A stretch of DNA of 64,000 nucleotides. It comes from Metarhizium brunneum (taxonomy: Eukaryota; Ascomycota; Sordariomycetes; Hypocreales; Clavicipitaceae). Made by a program: the position numbers and the translations under genes. Shown piece after piece: positions 9,750 through 22,642 of the stretch. The DNA lies in assembly GCF_013426205.1 (NCBI RefSeq), contig NC_089426.1:310001-374000 (forward strand), given 5' to 3'. The notes below the pieces were generated by a model, which saw only the letters and a list, made by a program, of their open reading frames with translations, was not told the DNA's origin and ran no database searches. Within the stretch, counting starts at the first letter, position 1, and the number at the start of each line of letters is the position of its first letter.

Positions 9750-11411
9750 ATGCCCTCATCTGAAAACGGCGCTGCCATCAAGGCGAAGAGCACGGTAAGT
9801 CGTTGGTTCTATCATGGATGGTAGTCTTAACACATTTGACTAGGCCAATTTGGCGTTTCACGGCTTCAAGGAGGAGAAGATGGTCTTTGATGCCAGAGTC
9901 AATGCTGTCTTGAAACCCGAGCTCCCAGAGCAGCTGCGGTTGGAGCTTAGAATTTGCGAGACGTTTGTTGAAGCTACTATTGACGCCAAGGCTATTGCAG
10001 AGGCGGTGTGGCACAGGGCTCAGAAGTTGACACCGGAATCCATTGTCAGAGTAACAGGCCATGTCCAACTGGTCAATGGGAATTCCGGTGGACACAAGGC
10101 CTTCACAACAATCCATGTGAAAAACTTGGACATCATTGCTCTGGCGTCTCCGGACCTGCCAAAGTTGCGCGGCAAGGAACTCTCCGGAGTTGGGCTCGAG
10201 GAGCGGCTCGATCATCGCATTCTTGATGTGCGCCGCGCCGCCTCCGGAGCCATCTTCAAGCTCCATTCGGGCATGTGCCAGCTGATTGTCGAGTTCCTTT
10301 GTTTAAACGGCTTCCATTGGATTCACACGCCACGCATCATCACGGCCACCATCCCCGGCGACAACGAGTACTTCCATTTGCCATACTTTGGCCAGGATGC
10401 ATGGCTGGCCCAGAGCTCGCAGCATCACAAACAGATGGCTCTTTCTATGGACATGCAGCGCGTGTTTGAGATTGGGCCCGTGTTCCGTGCTGAAGTCAAG
10501 TCGAGCAAGTCTACGAGACATATGACCGAGGTAGGCTCACACCCCAACCCTCCCCTCTGCCTCAAACGCCCCTGCTCCCACGTTGTCATTGGGAAATGAC
10601 GGTTGACCAACCATGGGAATCCAGTTCACCGTCCTGGATATAGCCATGGCTTTTCAGGACGACTACCACGAGGTGGCCGAGCTGATTGAATCCATGCTGG
10701 TGTTTGTCTTTCGGGGTCTTCAAGAACGCAAACAGTACAAGCCGCTCGTTGAGATCGTTCAACATCTGTATCCCTGTGCCAGGCCGTTCCGAATTGGCCT
10801 GGATGAGCACGGCAAAGTCCCGCGCATCACATTTCTCGAGGCCAAGCGCATTCTGAGAGAGGAGCTTGGCCTCGAATCAGACGACGGAAAGAACTTTACG
10901 TAAGTCAGTCCACTGATGCCATGATGCATGTTGTGTGCCTTTTCCCCCAGCTCCAAGCACTGACGGGATGCCTCGAGCGTATAGAGACCAAGAAGAAGCT
11001 GCCCTTGGCCGGCACTTTCGCGAGTCTCCTCGTCTGGGGAGTACAGACGTCTTCACCATTGATCAGTATCCCGCGTCTATGCGCCAGTTCAACTCGCAAG
11101 CAAACGCGGATGCGCCGGGCTTCTCCAACACGTGGGATACCATTGTTGGCGGGCGGGAGATTTGCTCCGGCAGTCAGCGCATCAACTCGTATGACGAGCT
11201 GCGCGAGGCCATGCGCGCGGGAGTCTGTGGTCCGCCGCTGGACCCCGAGGCCGACGAGTGGCAGCCTTACCTGACTGCATTCAAGAGCGGCATGCCGCGG
11301 CATGGCGGTTGCGGATTGGGCGTGAACAGGCTGTTGCAGGGGTTCCTGGGGTTGGAAGATGTTCGTGAAGTCACACTATTCCCCAGGGATGTGAATAGGT
11401 TGAAACCCTAG
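9750..11411 (+). CDS. Divergent aspartyl-tRNA synthetase-like protein
   Basis: Four exons: 9750-9794, 9844-10530, 10625-10899 and 10958-11411, giving 486 residues. Class II synthetase features are plain: a remnant OB-fold (LTPESIVRVTGHV), motif 2 VFRAE..STRHMTEF (Arg230) and motif 3 ending GLGVNRLLQGFLGL..VTLFPRD (Arg460). It departs from ordinary cytosolic AspRS in several places. The N-terminal anticodon-binding part is short and atypical. The usual SEGGA amino-acid loop reads ATIPGDNEYF. LDxEM reads LDIAM, and the acidic residue before the motif 3 Arg is Asn459. It is therefore probably a specialised paralogue, not the housekeeping enzyme. The last intron needs a CAAG acceptor. It is the left member of a group of unusual biosynthetic-type genes. 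Confidence 0.85.
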
Positions 11412-12281
11412 GGGCTTGGGGGGACCGGCCGAAATACAAGAGTCAATGGTACTCCGTACAGAAGATCTCTAATCTAATCGATCTAGGGGTTGATTTGCAC
11501 TCTGCAAATGCTGCCCGTTGCGAATGTGGCCGTTCGGGTGGCTGGTAGGTATGTACGTAATGAGAGTCCCCGAATTCATTACGGCGTACTCCGTACTCCG
11601 TAAAAGTCCGAGAAATGAGACACGCTGTCCCTTGTGCCTCGTCGATTGGACCTCTCCATGCGTTTCGCTTGGCCATGGATTTGGTGCGCCGGATACGCCC
11701 AGATACCTTCGGGGCTTAGACACTCATGGCCAAGCAAAAGCCATCGTCATGTGTAGTATAACCACGGACATACGTAAGATGCGTGCTATAAGCGCCCGGC
11801 TGTAGTTGGTCTGTCCCTCGCCTCTGTAGAGTGAGATGATATATGTCATTATGCACGGGGAATCAAGGATCCTTGGATAGCCCACACGTCTTGTTCGCGG
11901 CTGAACGGCCGGTAGACCAGAGACATCAATGCATGAAAGGCGCACCCCCCTCCACGAGCCGAGAGTCAAGATCGGTCTACGGGGTACAAGGCTCCTCCCG
12001 CCCTTGACAAAAGCCACATGCATGAGGGAGGGATCCGACTTGCTGACATGGAGATGCTGGGTCTCTTCCGGCCCTCGAATTCCGGCGCTTATGCACATGC
12101 GGCCGGCCAGCCGTGTTTAATTCCGCAGATGAGGCTTTCCCAGTGTCGACCGCAACTACGTAAAGCCCAGCCTGAAGCAAGTATGTATTGTAGGTACATG
12201 TACGGAGTACGGAGTAGCAACGACAACATCTTCACATCTACTCGGCAGTATCCAGGCTAATAACACGCCTAGGTAAACTAG
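11412..12281. other. Intergenic, convergent gene ends
   Basis: No coding signal. It contains tandem copies of the TACTCCGTA motif at about 11587-11602 and TACGGAGTA at about 12201-12216. Confidence 0.5.
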
Positions 12282-13222
12282 CTAAACCTTGTACGGCCGC
12301 AAAAGATAGATAATTCCGTTCCTCACCCTCTTGGGACCTGGCGGAGCGACGACGCGATGCACAGTCGAGTGCAGGCGCCCGCCAGATTGAGCCGCAAGCT
12401 CATCCGCAACGTTGATGAGCACGGTACCATCGATGACGGGGACCGTCTCCCAGTCGTCCGTCTGCTTCCCCTCCTTGTCGTAGATGGGTATCTGAGTCGT
12501 CACCTCGTCATACCATAGCAGTGTGGCGAGGCCGAAATCCGTGTGCCACGGGTGAATAACGTGGCCAGGCTCGTGCATGGGAGGCTTGTACAACAGCTTG
12601 AGAGCGGTATCGCTGGGGACGGCGGCATCATCGCTCAGCTCGGGGATGCGGATATCCAGGGCGGCGCAGAGCTCGGCAACGACCGTCTGAATGGCACCGT
12701 GAAAGGAGTTGATGGTGCGCGTGATGCGCTCCTTTTCCGGCTCGAAAGTGGCGGGTAAGACCCATTTGCCAAGTTGATACTCATCGCGCGCAATCTGATC
12801 AAGGGGTTAGTAGATGAGGAGACTGACACGACGAGACAGCTTTGCCTACAAGGGCACACTCACTTCGTAATATTCGAACCCCTTGCCGGCATGATAACTA
12901 CCAGTTGGAAGGAGAAGCCGTCAGTAATAGGCAGGAGCTTAACGTGTCTTGACATTTTCTCTCACCCTCGCTCCATTCCCTCGCGAGCGCTCTGTGTCTT
13001 TTCGTTGCTATCATGGGGCAGATTGAAGAAGGCATGCCCGGTTTTGAAGATGGTTGGTATGTCCTCAAAGATGGCGTTCGTGCTGGGACCCTGGAGGTTT
13101 AGGTAAAACATGCCCACCGTTTGGCAGGCTGTTACTAGCTTCTGAACCTCGGCGGCATCTTTGTTTGCGAGGGCTTCGTAGTTGACTACGGCGAGAGAGG
13201 CCATCTTCTCGGGAGAAGACAT
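12282..13222 (-). CDS. 2-oxoglutarate/Fe(II) oxygenase, isopenicillin-N-synthase-like
   Basis: Three minus-strand exons, 13222-12966, 12897-12864 and 12794-12282, give 267 residues. The facial triad is visible: HTD at 181-183 and the distal His243 in STVHRV, followed by Arg255 at the 2-oxoglutarate-anchoring position (VRNGIIYLLRP). The N-terminal DIOX_N-type segment (AVVNYEALANKDAAE) is present, but the protein is shorter than the usual 300-350 residues. It is probably a cytosolic non-haem oxygenase that hydroxylates or desaturates a small metabolite. It is divergent from the diiron gene across about 830 bp, so the two could share a promoter. Splice choice is supported by an uninterrupted family pattern through GYHAGKGFEYYE. 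Confidence 0.9.
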
Positions 13223-14055
13223 GATGGTGGTATTGGGTGTGAATGTTCAAAGTACGACGAAAGGCAGAAGTCGGGAATGGTCTGTGAGACTAGAGACTAG
13301 ATGGAAAAGGAGCAACAGAAAAAGAAAGCAAAGAAAGGAAAGGAAAGGAAGAGAGGGGTAGGGGGATTGCCTGGTTTACAGCCCGTTGCAGAACAGATCA
13401 CGGACTATCTTCCATCCAGTTTCTCATAGCTACGACCCACGTTGATCCCCAAAAGACTTGGTTGATCTGCAACCATGTATGATTGCAATGCTGTCACGCA
13501 TGACGGCCCGCGATTCTTTGCCACAACATACTTGCATGCTCGTGCTTCTCGGGGCGGCCTACTCTGTACTCGTTGGAACAAGGGATCCCAAGCATTGACG
13601 CCAAAAGCAATTGTGGAAGAGACCGGCGAGAAACATGCATACGTACCAAGTTACTACCGCATTCACAATGGGACGGCACAAACGCCATCATGCATCTAGC
13701 CCAAAACACGACTGCAGTCTTGGAGAGTTGCACAATGGTTGGGACGGCCCCTTGCTGTGCCAACAAAGAACGAACCCCCATCAAGAGACAGGCTGAGACG
13801 AGACAGTAAGAAAGTACGGAACACAGCCAGCCACATGTTTGATCTTCCTTGCTATCCTTTCCGCAGAGACTGTCGATCGTGTGATTTGATGTGCTGTGAC
13901 ATACACGACGCTCGAATTCTCGATGTAGCAATAAGCCACTCGGCCGCAACCTTTGTTTCTTCAGGTGCAACACTCGTCATAGTAGCGCAGTCCAGATAGG
14001 AATTCCAATTTTGCCTCTTGCTAAGGCTTTCCTCTCTGTCAGCATTGTCGCCAGT
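13223..14055. other. Divergent promoter region of oxygenase and diiron genes
   Basis: No supported gene. A purine-rich AAAGG-type run lies at about 13317-13358, just upstream of the minus-strand oxygenase. The overlapping antisense frame at 13494-13973 has no recognisable family signature. Confidence 0.45.
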
Positions 14056-16347
14056 ATGGACTTGTCAGACGCCTTTGTCGTCTTGCACTATCCTTTTGTC
14101 CTTCCCTTAGCTGTCCTGTTGCCTGCAATAATTTACTGCCTGGGCTTGACCAAGAGACAGGACTTTTCTGCATCTTCTAGGAATGCCCAAGTCGCCCAGT
14201 CCAAGGATGCGAGGATATCAGAGTCTGCCGTCCGGGATCCCAAACCGACACAATGGTACCGAAACATGTTTTTCAAGCTTCAGCATCTTGAAGACCACCC
14301 TGAAATCCTCGGGCCGGCGCGGGATGAGCTCTTGGCCATGTTCTCGCAGGGCCTTGCGCTCGCCCTGAAGAAGCCACAAAACAATATCCTCCGCATCGAA
14401 CAGTACAATGTCGAAAGCGTCTGGAGCTTCCTCGAGGACGAGCGTATACGCATTCTCGCTGAGTGGGCTAGTTATCTGGAGCGACGAAGGCAGGGATGCG
14501 GTCCAGAGCTTTTCGGGACAGCCGAGGCCGCCAAAGCATGGCTGGTCCAGCAAGCGCCCGTCAAGTTTGTTGACGGTGCATGGCTTGGTCATATACACAA
14601 GATCACGACTCCCTTTGCTCTTCGTGGCGTCACCAAAGATGTCTGGCAGGTCCTGTCGGAAGAGCTCGGTGACGGCGACCTGTCCAAGCACCACGTACAT
14701 CTGTACCGCAAACTTTTGGAGGATGTTGGATGTCCTCTGCCGGAGGGCCACAGCGCCGACTTTATCAATTTCTGCGACTGGGATGTCATGGGCAATGACG
14801 GCGCCTGGGAGGCTGCAGTGGCCCAGCTTCTCATCTCGCTGTTCCCCAACGAGTTCCTCCCCGAGATTCTTGGGTACAACATGCACTTTGAGATGGTCAC
14901 GCTCAACACTATGCAAGCCGCTCACGAGCTCAAGGACCTCGGCATCGACCCTTACTACTTCCTCATCCATATTGCCATAGACAATGCTGATTCCGGACAC
15001 ACGGCCATGGCCACGCACGCTGTTACACGGTACCTGGACATGGTTCGCGCGACCGAGGGCGAGACGGCCTCGGAGCAGGCATGGAAGCGTGTTCAGGTCG
15101 GATTCATTTTGTCTCAGACACAGGGAGATCATTCTTGTAAACGCGAAAGCGCCGCTGCTTCTACGATGACGATGGCGGGATCGGGACTTGCAAGGCCCAA
15201 CATTCCCAACGTGCTGCTTGACCCTCTAAGCACTCAGGTAATTGACATCTTTAGAGCCAAGGCATTGGTATCGCAGCAGTTCCACTGTCAAAGCAGAGTT
15301 CGCATCGGGACACATACTCTCTCCGAGTGGTTGGACCCGAACAAGTGGAAACATTCGAATCCCCAATACCAACTGGAACTCCTGAATGCCCTCAGCCGAG
15401 CCAGGCCGTGGATTATTCCCGGAGCAAGCAGCAAGAGTCTATTGATACGGGAGCTCTCGTGGGGAGGGCGCATGTTTGGTGCGTTCACCCACAACGAGGT
15501 GGCTGCTCTTTGTTCCTGGATCGACGCCCTGGGCCCGGAAAACACAGCTTCGCCATATTGGAGATTCACCCACAGAAAACCGCTGGCCTCAAAAGACGCC
15601 GTAGCAGAGCTCCAAGACCCGGTTTGCCATCATCCGTTTGTGTTTCCCGCCAGCAGCCACGCGGCGGCCACGACAGACACGGCATCTCAAGAGGTTGACT
15701 CTGACGGCGAGCCCTGGAAAACCCAGCAGCCTTTGAACTCGCCCTCGATAGACCGACTACCAGACATCATGGCCCTTTGGTTCGCGCACATTAGCCTGTT
15801 GGAAAACACCATCAACGTGCCGTCCCGGACCGCATGCCAGCTCCACGCTAGTATCCTGCGCCTCCTCCGAGCGCAGGCCGGCTTCGAGGCGGAAACCGAC
15901 GTCGTCGCCGGCATGGACGAGTTAAATCGGCACTCGCACACCAGCCTGATAGACGTCGGGCTAGAGTTGGCCCGGCAGGTCGGCCAGTCCACCCATGCCA
16001 CACCGGCATCCTTACAAGACGTCTTTGTCCTGGCAGCTAGCAAGGGTCAGGGCGAGGAGAGCGCCAGATTGGCAAACGACGTGCTGCGGTGGAGTGTGCG
16101 GCCCGTTGCGAATCTCGGCCTGCTGCTGGGCCTGGCCCTGGCCTTTCTCGAGTTCAAGAAGGCCATTGGGAGAGCGCCCGGGCTGCTGGGCCGGGAGAGT
16201 CGTCTTGCGCTCGAGGCCATTGTGGCAAGGGAGAAGACGAGTCTAGACGAGTGTGCGCGGGAGCTGCGAAACACGGATGTGGAACAGTACAAACACCTAG
16301 AGAGGGGATTCCGGCTTGGTATGCGTTCTTTACAGAAGTGCTTGTGA
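14056..16347 (+). CDS. Haem-oxygenase-like diiron (HDO) protein with membrane anchor and C-terminal domain
   Basis: Uninterrupted 763-codon frame; the ATG at 14056 was preferred over an upstream TTG. Residues 7-30 form a hydrophobic anchor. Residues 195-320 match the iron-containing redox enzyme family (haem-oxygenase-like fold). Likely metal ligands are Glu203, His213, Glu270 or Glu279, and His305/Asp309/His315 in the pattern HIAIDNADSGH. Family members (UndA, BesC, SznF type) use O2 at a diiron centre for C-C cleavage, N-oxidation or desaturation; the reaction here is unknown. From about residue 385 a second domain follows. Its PGASSKSLLIRELSWGGRMF..FTHNEV..LCSWI pattern recalls cytochrome-c-like PSCyt modules but lacks CxxCH. 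The gene lies within the candidate biosynthetic group. Confidence 0.85.
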   Translation: MDLSDAFVVLHYPFVLPLAVLLPAIIYCLGLTKRQDFSASSRNAQVAQSKDARISESAVRDPKPTQWYRNMFFKLQHLEDHPEILGPARDELLAMFSQGLALALKKPQNNILRIEQYNVESVWSFLEDERIRILAEWASYLERRRQGCGPELFGTAEAAKAWLVQQAPVKFVDGAWLGHIHKITTPFALRGVTKDVWQVLSEELGDGDLSKHHVHLYRKLLEDVGCPLPEGHSADFINFCDWDVMGNDGAWEAAVAQLLISLFPNEFLPEILGYNMHFEMVTLNTMQAAHELKDLGIDPYYFLIHIAIDNADSGHTAMATHAVTRYLDMVRATEGETASEQAWKRVQVGFILSQTQGDHSCKRESAAASTMTMAGSGLARPNIPNVLLDPLSTQVIDIFRAKALVSQQFHCQSRVRIGTHTLSEWLDPNKWKHSNPQYQLELLNALSRARPWIIPGASSKSLLIRELSWGGRMFGAFTHNEVAALCSWIDALGPENTASPYWRFTHRKPLASKDAVAELQDPVCHHPFVFPASSHAAATTDTASQEVDSDGEPWKTQQPLNSPSIDRLPDIMALWFAHISLLENTINVPSRTACQLHASILRLLRAQAGFEAETDVVAGMDELNRHSHTSLIDVGLELARQVGQSTHATPASLQDVFVLAASKGQGEESARLANDVLRWSVRPVANLGLLLGLALAFLEFKKAIGRAPGLLGRESRLALEAIVAREKTSLDECARELRNTDVEQYKHLERGFRLGMRSLQKCL

Positions 16348-18277
16348 TGGAGAAGACGGGCTCCGTGGCATCTACTTCACATTGGTATCTAGAGGTGTTG
16401 TGAGCAAATCTCGGAGGCGTTATGAATAGAGATGGATCTGTGTCCAAAGTAGTCCATACAGTGGCTGATTATTCTTTGGCTAACCGCCACGAGCTGTCTC
16501 GTCTCACGAGGTCCCAGAAACAGTAGAATGCATTCCGCTGGTCCACGGGGCATGCTAGATTGACCTGGCTGATTATATTACTACTGCTTCTACTGGCCAT
16601 TGGCAATGTGCTTCACAGCGCGTTTGGCCTCTTGACGCTGGCAATTATACAGAGTACAAAAGAGGGACCGCCACTCAAAAAAGCTGTTCGAAATAAGTCT
16701 GAAGGCATTTCGGTGCTCGGGCTTCAACTGCGACTTGTTTTAGTCTAACCATGCGATATCTCGGCCGTGCAGATCTAGGTTAGCCTCAATGTTGTCTCAT
16801 GCAGGACTGAACCCGTTGCAGACAGGGATAAATGGAGGGGGGTGAATATATAAACGTGGCCGAGTACGGAGGACAGGACAATTTTGGGATAACTACTAGC
16901 TCAGCCAGCCACGGCTCAAGACTTGCATATTCACATCTCAATAGGCCCAGTATGCGGGAACTTGGGTGCTCTATTGGCTTGTTCCGCTGTGTCTCATTCA
17001 TGTGGTACAACGTCGATAAAGGGCAAAGGAAGGACAACCGAGACAACATGCTGAAAGTCCAAAAACATGAGGCATTTAGTAAACTGCAGTGTGACGTAAT
17101 TCACTCAAACTCTAAAGGCGAGTTAAAGAACTAGGCATTACGACTTTATCTGTAGACCGTGTAACTTTTGCTCGCGATGTTTTCAGAACTACCTGGCACT
17201 ACACCCATTCCACTGCATAGATCAGGTATTAGTAATGCTGCATTCTCTTTCAAGAGAGTACATAGCTCGTACGAATAGGGGGATGTGCAGAATCGTTTAC
17301 AAGTAAAACAAGCTTTACGGTTACACTAATTATAGATAGGAAAACACTATTTTACGATGTATGTCACTTCCCCCATATTATATTTTTAGAATAAAAGGAG
17401 AGATGAACACCATGGTAGTATGAAAGTGCAAAATCACCATCATGTAACGCTTAATGGACCTTTGCAGTGTACTTTTGTGAGGCAGCTTGGATTCGTCCGG
17501 CGATGGTTGCAACGTTGATCCATATTTCGATTCAAATGGGCTGTCGCCAAATCACGCGAATCGCATGACGAAATAGGAAGCTTTTGCCGCTGTGAACAGG
17601 CACTAGTACCAAGACATGATGGCTATTGTTGTCGCTGCCGAAGCAGGGGTGTGATATTCCGGGGGAGTCAGCCGGCATGGCATCATGGCATCTAGAAATC
17701 ACAGCCCGAACCCTGATAAGCTATAGTACTCCGTAAATACCCCGTACTTGCACCACAGTACATAGCCGAGGACCTCAGCTCTCCACGAATTCCTAGTGTA
17801 ACTTGTCTGCCTCGGAACCCTATTCCCCTGTCCAAACACAGCTCCCTCACTTGACGCCACAAGCATGCTTTTGGACCAATCCGATTCGAGGGCATGCTCT
17901 GTCGGGCCAGGGACGAGGCATATCCGATAGGTGGGCAAAAGTAGGCTGCCTGCATGATCGCAACTGACACTACCACCCGCGCGGTGGGAGGGAGGCACCG
18001 GATATTGCGTCCCTGAGATTGCGTGGTACGGGTTCGGTGTCTTGCTTCCCGCACGTGTCACAAGGCAGGGGCATGTGTCTCGCAAAATATTAAGAAGGTT
18101 TTCTGCAGTCTGGTGTATCACACCCCATCATCTTGTGCCCCAGCTTCAACGGCCGATTTGAGAGCCCTTGCGTGGTGGCGCATGATAATTAGCAACTAGG
18201 CATCTTCTGCCGGTTATATCGAATTCTGATATTACTAGTGGCATCTCTAGACGCAAATTCCAGAAAAAGCAATGCTC

Positions 18278-18308
<31 letters not shown>

Positions 18309-18814
18309 ACACCACCCCTGTCCGGCAAGTATCCCAGAAGGGATGTGACTCTGGGCCTTGCGAATACATCTGATTGGCGATACCTCACGACACACCAGGA
18401 CTAATAATGCACAAGGACTAAAAGGTTTTTTTCTTCCTCTCTAAAGCTCGACGTGCATATGAAGCACGGAGTAGAAAAATGGCTAGTTTGGAGATGCTCA
18501 GACATGCCAGTCACAATCCCGCTCCGTAGCTCACGAGAGGCTGAACTGCCACCTAGCATGTCTCACAGCACTACATAAAGTTTTCCGGCAATAGGAATGG
18601 CGGTGAAGGCGCTCTCCCCGGCCTGAAATTAGGAATCGAGGCACAGAGTACGGAGTACTCGATATTCTGCGCGGCCAAAGCCGAAAACGCCAACACCTTC
18701 GCCTCGCTCCGCATCGTTAGATGCACATGTCGCTCACATGTCGGCGCATTTAGTTGACCACCATCTGCGACGGTCCTCTCTTCTCAGACAAGCAACACGT
18801 CCAGCAAAGAATCA
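16348..18814. other. Intergenic, 2.5 kb
   Basis: No supported gene. The frame at 16560-16748 is hydrophobic but short and unlike any family. A run of 24 A lies at 18284-18307, and TACGGAGTA-type motifs at about 17727 and 18648. Confidence 0.45.
18284..18307 (+). repeat. Poly(A) run, 24 nt
   Basis: Uninterrupted run of A in intergenic DNA. It could be a retroposed tail or a slippage tract. No flanking target-site duplication was recognised. Confidence 0.9.
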
Positions 18815-20423
18815 ATGGCCACTTTGATGCAGCAAATCCATATCGGGCTCGGCCGCGAGGGCTACGTGCCCGTCGCCCACCACCACGCCGACAAGGCCAC
18901 CTACACGCAGGAGCACGAGGCAATGCAGGCCAGTCTTGTGAATAGCTGTCCGGCCCATTTGTGGCCGAAAAACTCTCACAGGGCCGCCTGTCCGCGCCCG
19001 ATCCTCATGACCAAACAGCACCAGACACAGCTGGCCGAGCTGCACGAGGCACTCACCGCTGCCATCGCCGACATTGTCGAGCGGTGGTGGCCGGACAAGG
19101 AGAGTCGGTTTCCGGAGCGAATGCCTCTGACGAGCAAGGAAGAAGACCTTTTACAGGTGAGCGCGGATCGTAACAAACACAGTCAGTGTGAGAAGCTAAG
19201 GCGTCGAATGCCTCATCGAGTAGTGGCTCGAAGAGCAAGTATCGCGCGGCACCCTGCCAAAGTACGCCCAGTGTCGCGGAGGATGGCGACCAGACTTTAT
19301 GATTGAGGATCCTTGCGACGACGGCCTCGGCATTGAGAACTTTCGCATCACCGAAATCAACGCGCGCTTCAGCTTCAATGGGTTTATGCACCAGGCGTAC
19401 GGGCAGCGAGCCCTCGACGACATGGGCGTCAAGGCTCACGGATTCGTGGCTGCCACCAACGCCGCCAGAGTAAGTCCCTCACCGTCAATCTGCCATGGTC
19501 TTGTTCAAGGTTCTGACGCGTCCCAGGCGCTGGACGGCTTATTGGGCCTCTTCCGCGTCGACGCTCCCCTTCATCTGTTGAAAGCCGAAGAGAAGGGCAT
19601 GGACATTCACATGATGATGCATGACTTGCAGCGACGGCTTGGCTTTAGGCCGCGGCTGATAACCCCCGCGGATCTCAGGCTGCTCCCCGATCCAGAAAAC
19701 AGCAGTCGGCAGAAGCTGTACTGCGTCGTCAGGACCAATGGCCATAATGGCTCTTGCGCGCTCAAAACTCATCACGGAGAAGTGGTCGAAGAGATCGTCC
19801 AGCTAGGGCTGGAGCTGCACCAGCGTGAGCTGCTGGCGTTGGAGCCCGAGATGCTTCGCCAAGTCTGTCTACTTGGTTTCAACGACATGAGGACGCTCCT
19901 GCTCGTCCATGACAAGCGCATGCTTGGTATTGTGCGACAGGAGCTTGGGCAGCTGGTGGCGAGAGGAGTACTCACACAGGCGCAAGCAGAGGTCCTTGAC
20001 AAGGGGATTGCCAAGACGATTCTTGCTGGTTCGGCAGAGCTGCGACAGCTCCTTGCCAAGTCGCGCAGCTGTCCTAAGCTGCGGCATCAGTATATCCTGA
20101 AGCCTATCCGTGGTGGAAAGGGGGCCGGGATTCTGTTTGGGGATAGTATTTCCATAGACGCGTGGATTCGTACGTTGGAGCGCATGCAGACTGCTGGCCT
20201 GGGTTCCGAGGCGTCCTACGTTGTGCAGCGACGCATTACGCCCCGGTTGTACGACATGGTGTTGGATAGCTCCGGTGATCGAGTACAGTACCCCCTTGTT
20301 GGGACATATCATGCCGTACATGGAACGCTGGTTGGGCTGGGGATATGGCGGACGAGCGGTGATCGCATCTGTGCCATTAGCACCGGCGGCTCTTGGCTCT
20401 GTTCTGTCTTGCGCGGAGACTGA
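18815..20423 (+). CDS. Circularly permuted ATP-grasp ligase-like protein
   Basis: Three exons, 18815-19156, 19224-19469 and 19527-20423, give 494 residues. The second intron is 57 nt and in frame, with good GTAAGT..CCCAG ends, so unspliced message would still be open. The metal-binding ExN pair (Glu158-Ile-Asn160 in RITEINARFSFNGF) comes before the ATP-binding lysine and glycine-rich loop (YILKPIRGGKGAGI, Lys388). This is the reverse of the standard ATP-grasp order and marks a circular permutation. Such enzymes join a carboxylate to an amine or similar nucleophile via an acyl phosphate. No close family member was recognised. It is in the same orientation as, and just upstream of, the PaaK-like gene, which suggests joint action. 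Confidence 0.8.
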
Positions 20424-21147
20424 TGGATTCGCATGTCATCGAATCGAGGTGATGGCAAATTTCGGTCTCGTTCTAGTCCTGCCACGCTCGCCTAGTAACA
20501 GAATGCGTCACAGTACGGTTGACGTCATCTGGCAAATGTCAGTATCCCAAAAATTTTGCATGAGACCTGGTGTCTGGTTGAAAGACATGAAGATTCGATG
20601 TGTGCTCGTCTCGTCTTGTTCTCCGCCTTGATTCTGTGTCTCTTAGAGTTTTGACGCTGGCCATGCCCCTGCTTATAGCTTTGCTTCCAGATGTCTCAAT
20701 GCGGCTGCATATCATCTTGTCTTGGGGGACGTCATTTTCGGCAGTTGGGTCATGCGGGAGGAGCTGAAGCATCACGAGGGGTAAAGAGCGGTGGAAACAT
20801 TGAAGCCTCAAAAAGAAAGACACGGCAGAAGGTTGCTTGGCATGGGTCTCAGGCGGCTGCAGAATATTTATGGTGCATGCACGTGCATCTTTGTGTTCGG
20901 CGACCTCCATGTCCCCAGATGTCCAGCTGTCGTCAACTGGTCTCAACATGCATGTAATGCCGCTTCTGGTTAGTCAGCCAAGTTTTGAACAAAAGGTCCT
21001 TGGAAAAAGAAAAACAAGAAACCTGTGTAACGGTAATGGATCCTCATAACAAATCTTCTCTGCCCGCCGTGCCTGACCTACCTTGCACCATGACGTCCAG
21101 CAGCACATGCCCCTCACATTGTCTTTTGCGCGTTTCATCATTGCATC
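20424..21147. other. Intergenic between ATP-grasp and PaaK-like genes
   Basis: No coding signal. It presumably carries the 3' end of one gene and the promoter of the next. Confidence 0.5.
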
Positions 21148-22642
21148 ATGGCACCTGAAAACTATACACTGAGCGATGTGCTGGCCGTTGCCAAGTCTCA
21201 CCCTTTTTATGACCAAGATATTCAGTATCCGCCCGACTCGGAGACGATCGAGAAACTTCGGGAACAGTCGAGGGAGCAGCCAGAGAGTGATGGCCTGAAA
21301 TTGCAACCATTGCTTCGAAAAAAAGACCTGTGAGAAGTCTGACAGAAATGCACAAGTATTCCGAGTCTAACCTGGCAGCTACACAACGATTGAGCGTCTC
21401 GTGAATGACCCGAGTCCCCAAAACACGTACCGCCACAGCATCTATGCGAGCATCACGGGGGGCGGGTTCGGATCCAAACCCTTGTTCTTTGCCACAGACG
21501 TCCATGAGAACCGTAGACATAGGGCCCAGTTTGGTGAGCTTCTCCGAGCTACCGGAGTGGTCAAGCATGGAGACTGGATCCTCACGACTCACTGCGCCGG
21601 TGAGCTTTACAGGTACTCGCGACCACCAGTCGAGCCGAGTGCGCGATTTGCTGACCAGCAAACTAGATCCCTAGACCTCATGTTGGAGATTCTGGAGAAC
21701 GCCGGCGCCTCCGTCCTCAGCGCCGGAAACCACATGCCCCCAGAAGAAGTGATTCATCTCCTGATCAAGTATCACATCAACGTCCTGGCCGGAGACAGCA
21801 GCCAGGTAGCCCAGCTTATCCACAGGATATCGGGCCTTGCGCCGGAATCTCGGGCCCTGCTGAGGCTAGACAAGATAATCTACACCTCGGAAGTACTCAC
21901 CGCCGCTCAGCGGGCACACATCAAGACTGTTCTCGGCAACCATGTCAAAATCTGCTCCATCATGGGCAGCGCCGAGGCAGGGCCCTGGGCGCTCAGCAAC
22001 CCAGACCTCACAGGACAAGAAGCGCACACAAGCCAAGCAGACTTCATCTTTGACACTCGCGCCATGCTGCTCGAGGTCCTTTCCCCGTCATCCCAGCAAG
22101 GCGAAGGCGGCTCTGATCCCGCGCCCGTGCCAGAGGGCCACGAGGGCATCGTCGTGCAAACGTCCCTGTCGCGGCTGCGCAATCCCCTCGTGCGCTACGA
22201 CACGGGCGACATTGGATCTCTTCACCCGCTTCCTGCGCAGGCTCGGGGCCTGGTTCCCGAGGAGTATTGGCCGTTTTTGCGCGTTCTGCGCTTCCAGGGC
22301 CGCGACCGGCGCTTCAGCTTCGACTGGGACGGCGAGTACCTCGACTTTGTTGACCTGACGGCCTTGCTGAATGCCGAGGCGTGCGGCGTCCTGCAGTGGC
22401 AGGTCATCCTGGACAAGCTGGAGCCGTCTTTGGAGTCGTCCCTTGAGATTCGGCTGCTGCGGTCCCCGCCAAATGTTAAGCTCTTGCCGGAGCAGGAGCT
22501 TGCTGAGCGAATTAGGACCTTTGTGCATGCGTATTCTGCGAATGAGCATCGCTTTCGGCTTGTTTTTGTGGATGGTCTGGATGGCTTCGAGCGGAGTTCT
22601 ACGGGAAGAAAGGTTATCAAGTTTATAGATCGCTATAATTAG
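21148..22642 (+). CDS. PaaK-like adenylate-forming enzyme
   Basis: Three exons, 21148-21329, 21379-21612 and 21667-22642, give 463 residues. The second intron (54 nt, in frame) has a clear TGCTGAC branch site. Adenylation motifs in order: the P-loop analogue SITGGGFGSKP (residues 86-96), GSAEAGPWA in the place of YGxTE, RYDTGDIG, the FQGRDRRF hinge region, and a C-terminal STGRKVIKFID carrying the usual catalytic-Lys region. This is the phenylacetate-CoA-ligase-like branch, which activates carboxylic acids as adenylates. Whether the acceptor is CoA or an amine is open. It is the right-hand enzyme of the candidate cluster. Confidence 0.88.

Follow-up and report, generated by a model that had tools for sequence, protein, structure and literature searches.

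Fungal assembly of E-64 requires a minimum set of three enzymes and proceeds without a nonribosomal peptide synthetase (NRPS) (PMC12568646, 2025). As described there, the essential Fe/2-oxoglutarate (2OG) oxygenase Cp1A converts fumarate to (2S,3S)-epoxysuccinate, the ATP-grasp ligase Cp1B, with a fold likened to homoglutathione synthetase, couples epoxysuccinate with an L-amino acid and the ANL amide bond synthetase Cp1D couples the pseudodipeptide with an amine. The cp1 and cp2 clusters are those of Aspergillus flavus and A. oryzae, and the cpA-cpB-cpD cassette was reported from more than 40 fungal genera including Metarhizium (PMC12568646). Here, a five-gene locus was analysed in a 64,000-base stretch of Metarhizium brunneum (the window; bases 310001-374000 of contig C5, NC_089426.1, in a genome of 37.77 Mb and 7 contigs). 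The locus encodes an aspartyl-tRNA synthetase (AspRS)-like protein (AspRSL), an isopenicillin N synthase (IPNS)-like Fe(II)/2OG oxygenase, a haem-oxygenase-like diiron oxidase (HDO) protein, a Cp1B-type ATP-grasp ligase and a Cp1D-type ANL enzyme. With a probability of roughly 55%, we read it as a variant E-64-type biosynthetic cluster predicted to make a di-amide with an aspartate-derived part. Because the defining gene, Cp1A, is absent, we class the locus as a variant of the E-64 type, not as a member of it.

Compared with cp1 and cp2, the locus likewise has the Cp1B-type and Cp1D-type enzymes side by side and no NRPS, but in place of the epoxysuccinate synthase Cp1A it holds AspRSL, the IPNS-like oxygenase and the HDO (PMC12568646). 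In addition, the window gave no match to a PF02784-type decarboxylase, the family in which Cp1C is placed; the genome has a single match, on contig C1 at 6.56 Mb. A second related system is belactosin of Streptomyces, in which the HDO BelK, the nonheme iron enzyme BelL and ATP-grasp ligases are comparable in kind to the HDO, 2OG-type oxygenase and ATP-grasp ligase of the window; the parts of the review covered here do not mention an AspRS-like enzyme (PMC10764440). The fungal NK13650 pathway (ank; AnkG, AnkE) also forms these bonds without an NRPS, and its ATP-grasp enzyme, about 30% identical to Cp1B, was proposed to add aspartate (PMC12568646). It differs from the window by a tRNA-dependent cyclodipeptide enzyme and a NIS synthetase. 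A gene pair resembling AnkG/AnkE was observed on C1 near 295 kb, outside the window, where a third ATP-grasp relative (37%; C1:295161-296564, L025:6690-7983) adjoins ORFs with IucA/IucC and FhuF domains (NIS-type synthetase).

All five genes are present with intact frames and GT-AG introns of 49-94 bases. The ends assigned by a first-pass annotation of the sequence are exact, with 9750 being the first start codon and 22642 the last stop. That annotation had described divergent 2OG and HDO genes and collinear ATP-grasp and ANL genes, with which the gene models agree, and had proposed an amide-building pathway free of NRPS and polyketide synthase with activation through an acyl phosphate and an acyl adenylate, which is supported by the chemistry of Cp1B and Cp1D in E-64 biosynthesis (PMC12568646). 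Comparison with homologues corrected two splice sites, resulting in 477 aa for AspRSL and 463 aa for the ANL enzyme; several searches (Pfam, the AspRSL and ANL homologue lists and the SEGG-loop comparison) were made with earlier gene models carrying 9 or 18 extra residues. The protein homologue lists, on which the counts of homologues and shared tags rest, hold the best 120 of 475 (ATP-grasp), 492 (ANL) and 3947 (AspRSL) matches. Co-location was assessed by locus-tag spacing and equal contig size, with the longest contig in each 90% cluster supplying the size.

The ATP-grasp protein (494 aa, 3 exons at 18815-19156, 19224-19469 and 19527-20423, forward strand) matched a single PDB sequence, 9cjn 'Ligase Cp1B', with an E-value of 5.1e-173 and 580 bits over 489 of 494 residues. 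The catalytic residues R139, D141, E163 and N165 of Cp1B are all identical in the window protein, and in an alignment of 121 ATP-grasp sequences D141, E163 and N165 were found in all 121 and R139 in 120 (one gap). On homology, we assign it as the Cp1B orthologue. The replacement of F175 of Cp1B by H in the window protein was considered as a sign of an altered amino acid pocket, a reading that was set aside because most of the aligned sequences (101 of 121 rows) have H there. The ANL protein (PaaK-like, 463 aa, 3 exons at 21148-21329, 21379-21612 and 21667-22642, forward strand; 456 aa in the deposited M. brunneum model P0122, record tag G6M90_00g081810) gave only weak PaaK-type matches, and its homologues adjoin ATP-grasp homologues. 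Neither protein matched a model above cut-off in the Pfam copy used; the ATP-grasp ligase was identified via Cp1B and homologues, and the ANL enzyme via homologues. Judged from its homologues and its partner gene, the ANL enzyme is probably of the Cp1D type.

The two ligase genes also travel together in other fungi. Locus tags were at most 3 apart in 15 of the 20 positional prefixes common to both best-120 lists, the remaining five being ACHAP5, FDECE, MY3296, RU639 (A. parasiticus) and CDV56; in CDV56 the tags are more than 3 apart, yet both genes are on one contig size. Equal contig size was found in 30 of 36 common prefixes, including 14 of 16 with JGI-type tags, which are non-positional and were excluded from the ratio of 15/20. 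This recount covered all 120 + 120 rows, which have 31 contig sizes in common. Furthermore, TauD domains are fused to the ATP-grasp protein in entries P0029 and P0117 and to the ANL enzyme in P0148, P0160, P0164 and P0197, fusions that link the TauD, ATP-grasp and ANL proteins to one another.

Because of these fusions, Cp1A can presumably be placed in the TauD family. No PF02668 match was found in the window, and three TauD tblastn queries found none either in the window or in the 7 kb before it, whereas the same three queries matched C1 at 56-77%. There, a second and complete set was located, with TauD at approximately 5399060-5399872, ATP-grasp at 5401049-5402679 and the ANL enzyme at 5403557-5405204. 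The ATP-grasp and ANL genes of this cassette are divergent, and its ATP-grasp falls in another clade (that of P0018) than the window protein, which belongs to a clade of five rows from Metarhizium and Conoideocrella (SH-aLRT 100). A recent duplication of the two Cp1B-type copies was rejected, since they fall in different supported clades, although the deep forks are weak. The window clade probably lost the TauD gene from the locus, because the pair has consecutive tag numbers in M. album, Conoideocrella and Ophiocordyceps australis, while among the 15 linked prefixes 9 have one number between and 3 have two.

AspRSL (477 aa, 4 exons at 9750-9794, 9844-10530, 10625-10899 and 10985-11411, forward strand) matched PF00152 with an E-value of 9e-57. 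AspRS paralogues tabulated in the literature include asparagine synthetase A and ErdS (PMC9437257). AspRSL is like AspRS and both of these in the class II core, in motifs 2 and 3 and in the aspartate-binding residues, and asparagine synthetase A is described as an AspRS-like enzyme without a tRNA-binding domain (PMC9437257). Unlike AspRS and ErdS, it forms a separate clade, scores below the NCBIfam cut-offs, has the SEGG loop replaced and has an iron-oxygenase partner gene. Its relatives comprise 50 near rows at 53-94% identity, some of them fragments, and among the best 120 of 3947 matches about 30 named fungi, A. fumigatus among them, carry AspRSL. A quick tree of 57 rows (midpoint root, a selection of the 50 near rows) grouped AspRSL with five distant paralogues as a set of 40 that excluded canonical AspRS and the ErdS-like protein of this genome, with SH-aLRT 100 and a branch of 0.72. 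Further AspRS paralogues were observed in Fusarium, Trichoderma, Apiospora and Eutypa (P0288, P0294, P0295, P0298 and P0304), and the aspartate-binding Arg is lost in all four of P0288, P0294, P0298 and P0304. An identity of AspRSL with ErdS was rejected, because the ErdS-like protein of this genome is a separate gene that grouped with canonical AspRS in the tree. That gene, on C1 (C1:2351094-2353859; L026:2094-4859), is a single ORF for an AspRS of 921 aa that is extended at the C-terminus, and by resemblance it is probably the ergosteryl-aspartate synthase ErdS.

Residue roles in AspRSL were assumed from E. coli and yeast AspRS. In 20 AspRSL of the main clade, the motif 2 Arg and Glu, both acidic Mg ligands and the motif 3 Arg are retained (19-20 of 20), as are S, Q, K, D, R and H of the aspartate site (19-20 of 20; D in 19, with one gap). 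The motif 3 Glu is replaced by Asn in 20/20, and Asn also occurs in 2 of 11 canonical rows. The anticodon OB-fold domain PF01336 was found only at E 0.1 and 13 bits against a cut-off of 27, and it is annotated in none of the 44 homologues P0241-P0284. AspRSL also scored below the cut-offs of the bacterial and archaeal NCBIfam AspRS models TIGR00458 (293.7 against 368.4 bits) and NF003483 (293.6 against 353). This pattern fits a putative adenylating enzyme that no longer serves translation. The earlier suggestion of an aspartate-derived amide gains support, since AspRSL keeps most of the aspartate-recognising residues. Among the titles and abstract starts listed, no paper other than PMC12568646 was found to bear on a clustered AspRSL or on the five-gene locus, and both mentions of Metarhizium in the parts of that paper covered here concern the cpA-cpB-cpD cassette.

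The IPNS-like oxygenase (267 aa, 3 exons at 12966-13222, 12864-12897 and 12282-12794, reverse strand) matched PF03171 (E 8e-10) and PF14226 (E 1e-8), both above cut-offs, and by eye its translation shows HTD (H-x-D) and STVHRVV with the distal H. No other match above 39% identity was found in the genome. In nine joined entries (A. fumigatus 7, Penicillium cinerascens 1, Curvularia clavata 1), an oxygenase 58-67% identical to the window protein runs N-terminally straight into AspRSL. These may be real fusions or merged gene models, and the genes are adjacent there either way. The fungi with the paired genes belong to three classes of Ascomycota. Because the two genes are head to tail in the joined entries and tail to tail in the window, the pairing appears to have survived rearrangement over these classes. 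The A. fumigatus entries P0272, P0274, P0277 and P0279-P0282 carry the pair with an altered aspartate pocket, and no paper on the A. fumigatus pair was found among the titles and abstract starts of the literature listings.

The HDO protein (763 aa, 1 exon, 14056..16347, forward strand) matched PF14518 with an E-value of 1e-33 and 117 bits against a cut-off of 28.9. The domain lies near residues 160-350, and by eye a hydrophobic N-terminal stretch precedes it. It was the only PF14518 match found in the genome. The HDO diiron ligand set includes H-x3-D-x2-H on the third helix. A stretch of the protein reads HIAIDNADSGH, unlike this motif, as compared by eye. A single PDB match at E 0.059 was rejected as chance level, and one single-protein scan of a collection of genome contigs, which detects close kin only, confirmed no bacterial relative.

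Taken together, the locus appears to merge two conserved modules, one of ATP-grasp and ANL enzyme (often with TauD) and one of AspRSL and 2OG oxygenase. The set is probably more than a chance assembly, because the HDO is the single PF14518 match of the genome, the 2OG protein has no close second copy there and other fungi, too, have some of these genes side by side. In Conoideocrella luteorostrata, AspRSL, ATP-grasp and ANL enzyme carry the consecutive tags QQS21_001576, 001577 and 001578, and in M. album AspRSL is on the same contig size as both ligases. In M. rileyi, AspRSL and ATP-grasp are on the same contig size, but the ED733 tags are 118 apart. A metagenome contig of 66,576 bases gives its size to both AspRSL and an ANL homologue, which are probably on the same contig.

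In the variant E-64-type pathway proposed here, the ATP-grasp ligase would phosphorylate one carboxylate of a small dicarboxylic acid and couple it to an L-amino acid, and the Cp1D-type enzyme would adenylate the free carboxylate of the pseudodipeptide and couple it to an amine, both by homology. Since its ATP- and aspartate-binding residues are kept and the anticodon domain appears degenerate, AspRSL would most likely form aspartyl-AMP and transfer aspartate to a small molecule, as an amide or ester, instead of to tRNA. From its pairing with AspRSL, the IPNS-like oxygenase may oxidise the aspartate unit. The weakest step is that of the HDO, which probably carries out the oxidation of an amino acid or amine used as a building block, much as BelK acts on lysine in belactosin (PMC10764440). 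These steps would yield an E-64-like di-amide, its aspartate-derived part perhaps serving as the warhead. By analogy, such a part is plausible from the moderate activity of Cp1D in amidating L-Asp-L-Phe and L-Asp-L-Leu and from the malic and fumaric analogues produced by a host without cp1A, which indicate that the ligases tolerate other four-carbon acids (PMC12568646). In a more specific and rather speculative form, for which we hold out little expectation, an aspartate route would replace the Cp1A step, with AspRSL loading L-aspartate and the iron oxygenases converting it to a reactive unit such as aziridine-2,3-dicarboxylate, giving 'aza-E-64' cysteine protease inhibitors assembled with a ligase that derives from a tRNA synthetase. 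Aziridine-2,3-dicarboxylate is the nitrogen analogue of epoxysuccinate and a warhead known in miraziridine. We know of no fungal genes for aziridine-dicarboxylate warheads, although no dedicated search was made.

Several observations weigh against the proposed pathway. The TauD set on C1 could supply epoxysuccinate in trans. As the amino acid that the ATP-grasp ligase couples, aspartate is an unlikely candidate unless the specificity of the ligase has changed, because polar amino acids and side chains are poorly tolerated by Cp1B and Cp2B (PMC12568646). Within AspRSL, the P of QSPQ and the Glu following the aspartate-site Asp are altered in all 20 sequences (one gap at the latter), the first E of GEE is Arg in 20/20, the R of RGEE is altered in 18/20 and the mobile SEGG loop is replaced by I-P/A-G-D or similar. 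The A. fumigatus type lacks the pocket Lys and Asp (4/4), and because of this loss its substrate probably differs. With regard to linkage, AspRSL and the ligases are on different contig sizes with distant tags in five species listing both (A. felis, P. fimorum, Beauveria gryllotalpidicola, Cordyceps javanica and Lecanicillium saksenae), and among the matches listed only 4 of 50 AspRSL rows share a contig size with a listed ligase. Finally, the consecutive tags in Conoideocrella leave no annotated gene between AspRSL and ATP-grasp, and this fungus must therefore have its 2OG and HDO genes at another place or lack them. The claim of the first-pass annotation that the five genes form one pathway is partly supported: AspRSL and the ligases occur together in Metarhizium, Conoideocrella and probably on the metagenome contig, while the whole unit is not established. 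The co-location in other fungi that it named as a check was found for ATP-grasp and ANL enzyme and, in three species, for AspRSL and 2OG oxygenase, but not between AspRSL and the ligases in the five species named.

The low counts of shared contigs and the five unlinked species, together with the complete TauD, ATP-grasp and ANL cassette in the same genome, are also what would be seen if two unrelated modules were chance neighbours. The locus would then consist of a TauD-less Cp1B/Cp1D pair, or one making an ordinary E-64 analogue with epoxysuccinate from C1, beside a separate AspRSL-2OG pathway, with the HDO in neither. We regard this as possible but unlikely, given the consecutive tags of AspRSL, ATP-grasp and ANL enzyme in Conoideocrella and the equal contig sizes in M. 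album and, for AspRSL and ANL enzyme, in the metagenome. A belactosin-like scheme is more doubtful still. Here, the HDO and 2OG oxygenase would together supply an unusual amino acid in the manner of BelK and BelL, the ATP-grasp ligase would join it to epoxysuccinate or fumarate and AspRSL would add an aspartate residue; the union of an HDO, a nonheme iron cyclase and ATP-grasp ligases in belactosin (PMC10764440) and the divergent 2OG and HDO genes, with 833 bases between them, are in line with it, but the 2OG oxygenase recurs with AspRSL. The intergenic stretch itself (window 13223-14055) is a candidate shared regulatory region. It is very improbable that AspRSL is a self-resistance copy of AspRS in a cluster making an AspRS inhibitor that mimics aspartyl-adenylate, for although extra target copies within clusters are a known pattern and AspRSL is derived from AspRS with altered loops, its clade is deeply separate, PF01336 is annotated in none of the 44 homologues and AspRSL has a 2OG oxygenase as partner at other loci too. 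AspRSL could hardly take the place of AspRS in translation.

Around the locus, five of eight scanned neighbour ORFs in the window had a Pfam match (an alpha/beta hydrolase, a subtilase, a sugar transporter, a VIT/VWA protein and a GH17 protein), none of them clearly a member of the five-gene locus. Four small nearby ORFs gave zero Pfam matches, and intron-split genes, for example for regulators, could escape such an ORF scan.

Overall, about half of the locus is already explained by the described E-64-type cassette. The three-gene assembly of that type was described in 2025 (PMC12568646), and the locus looks like a natural variant of it that lacks the warhead gene and has an enzyme derived from AspRS as a neighbour of the ligases. 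Should AspRSL act as an amino acid ligase on its own, it would add another kind to the AspRS paralogues, next to asparagine synthetase A and ErdS. For M. brunneum, the locus is a short gene set for a possible new protease-inhibitor-like compound from an insect pathogen.

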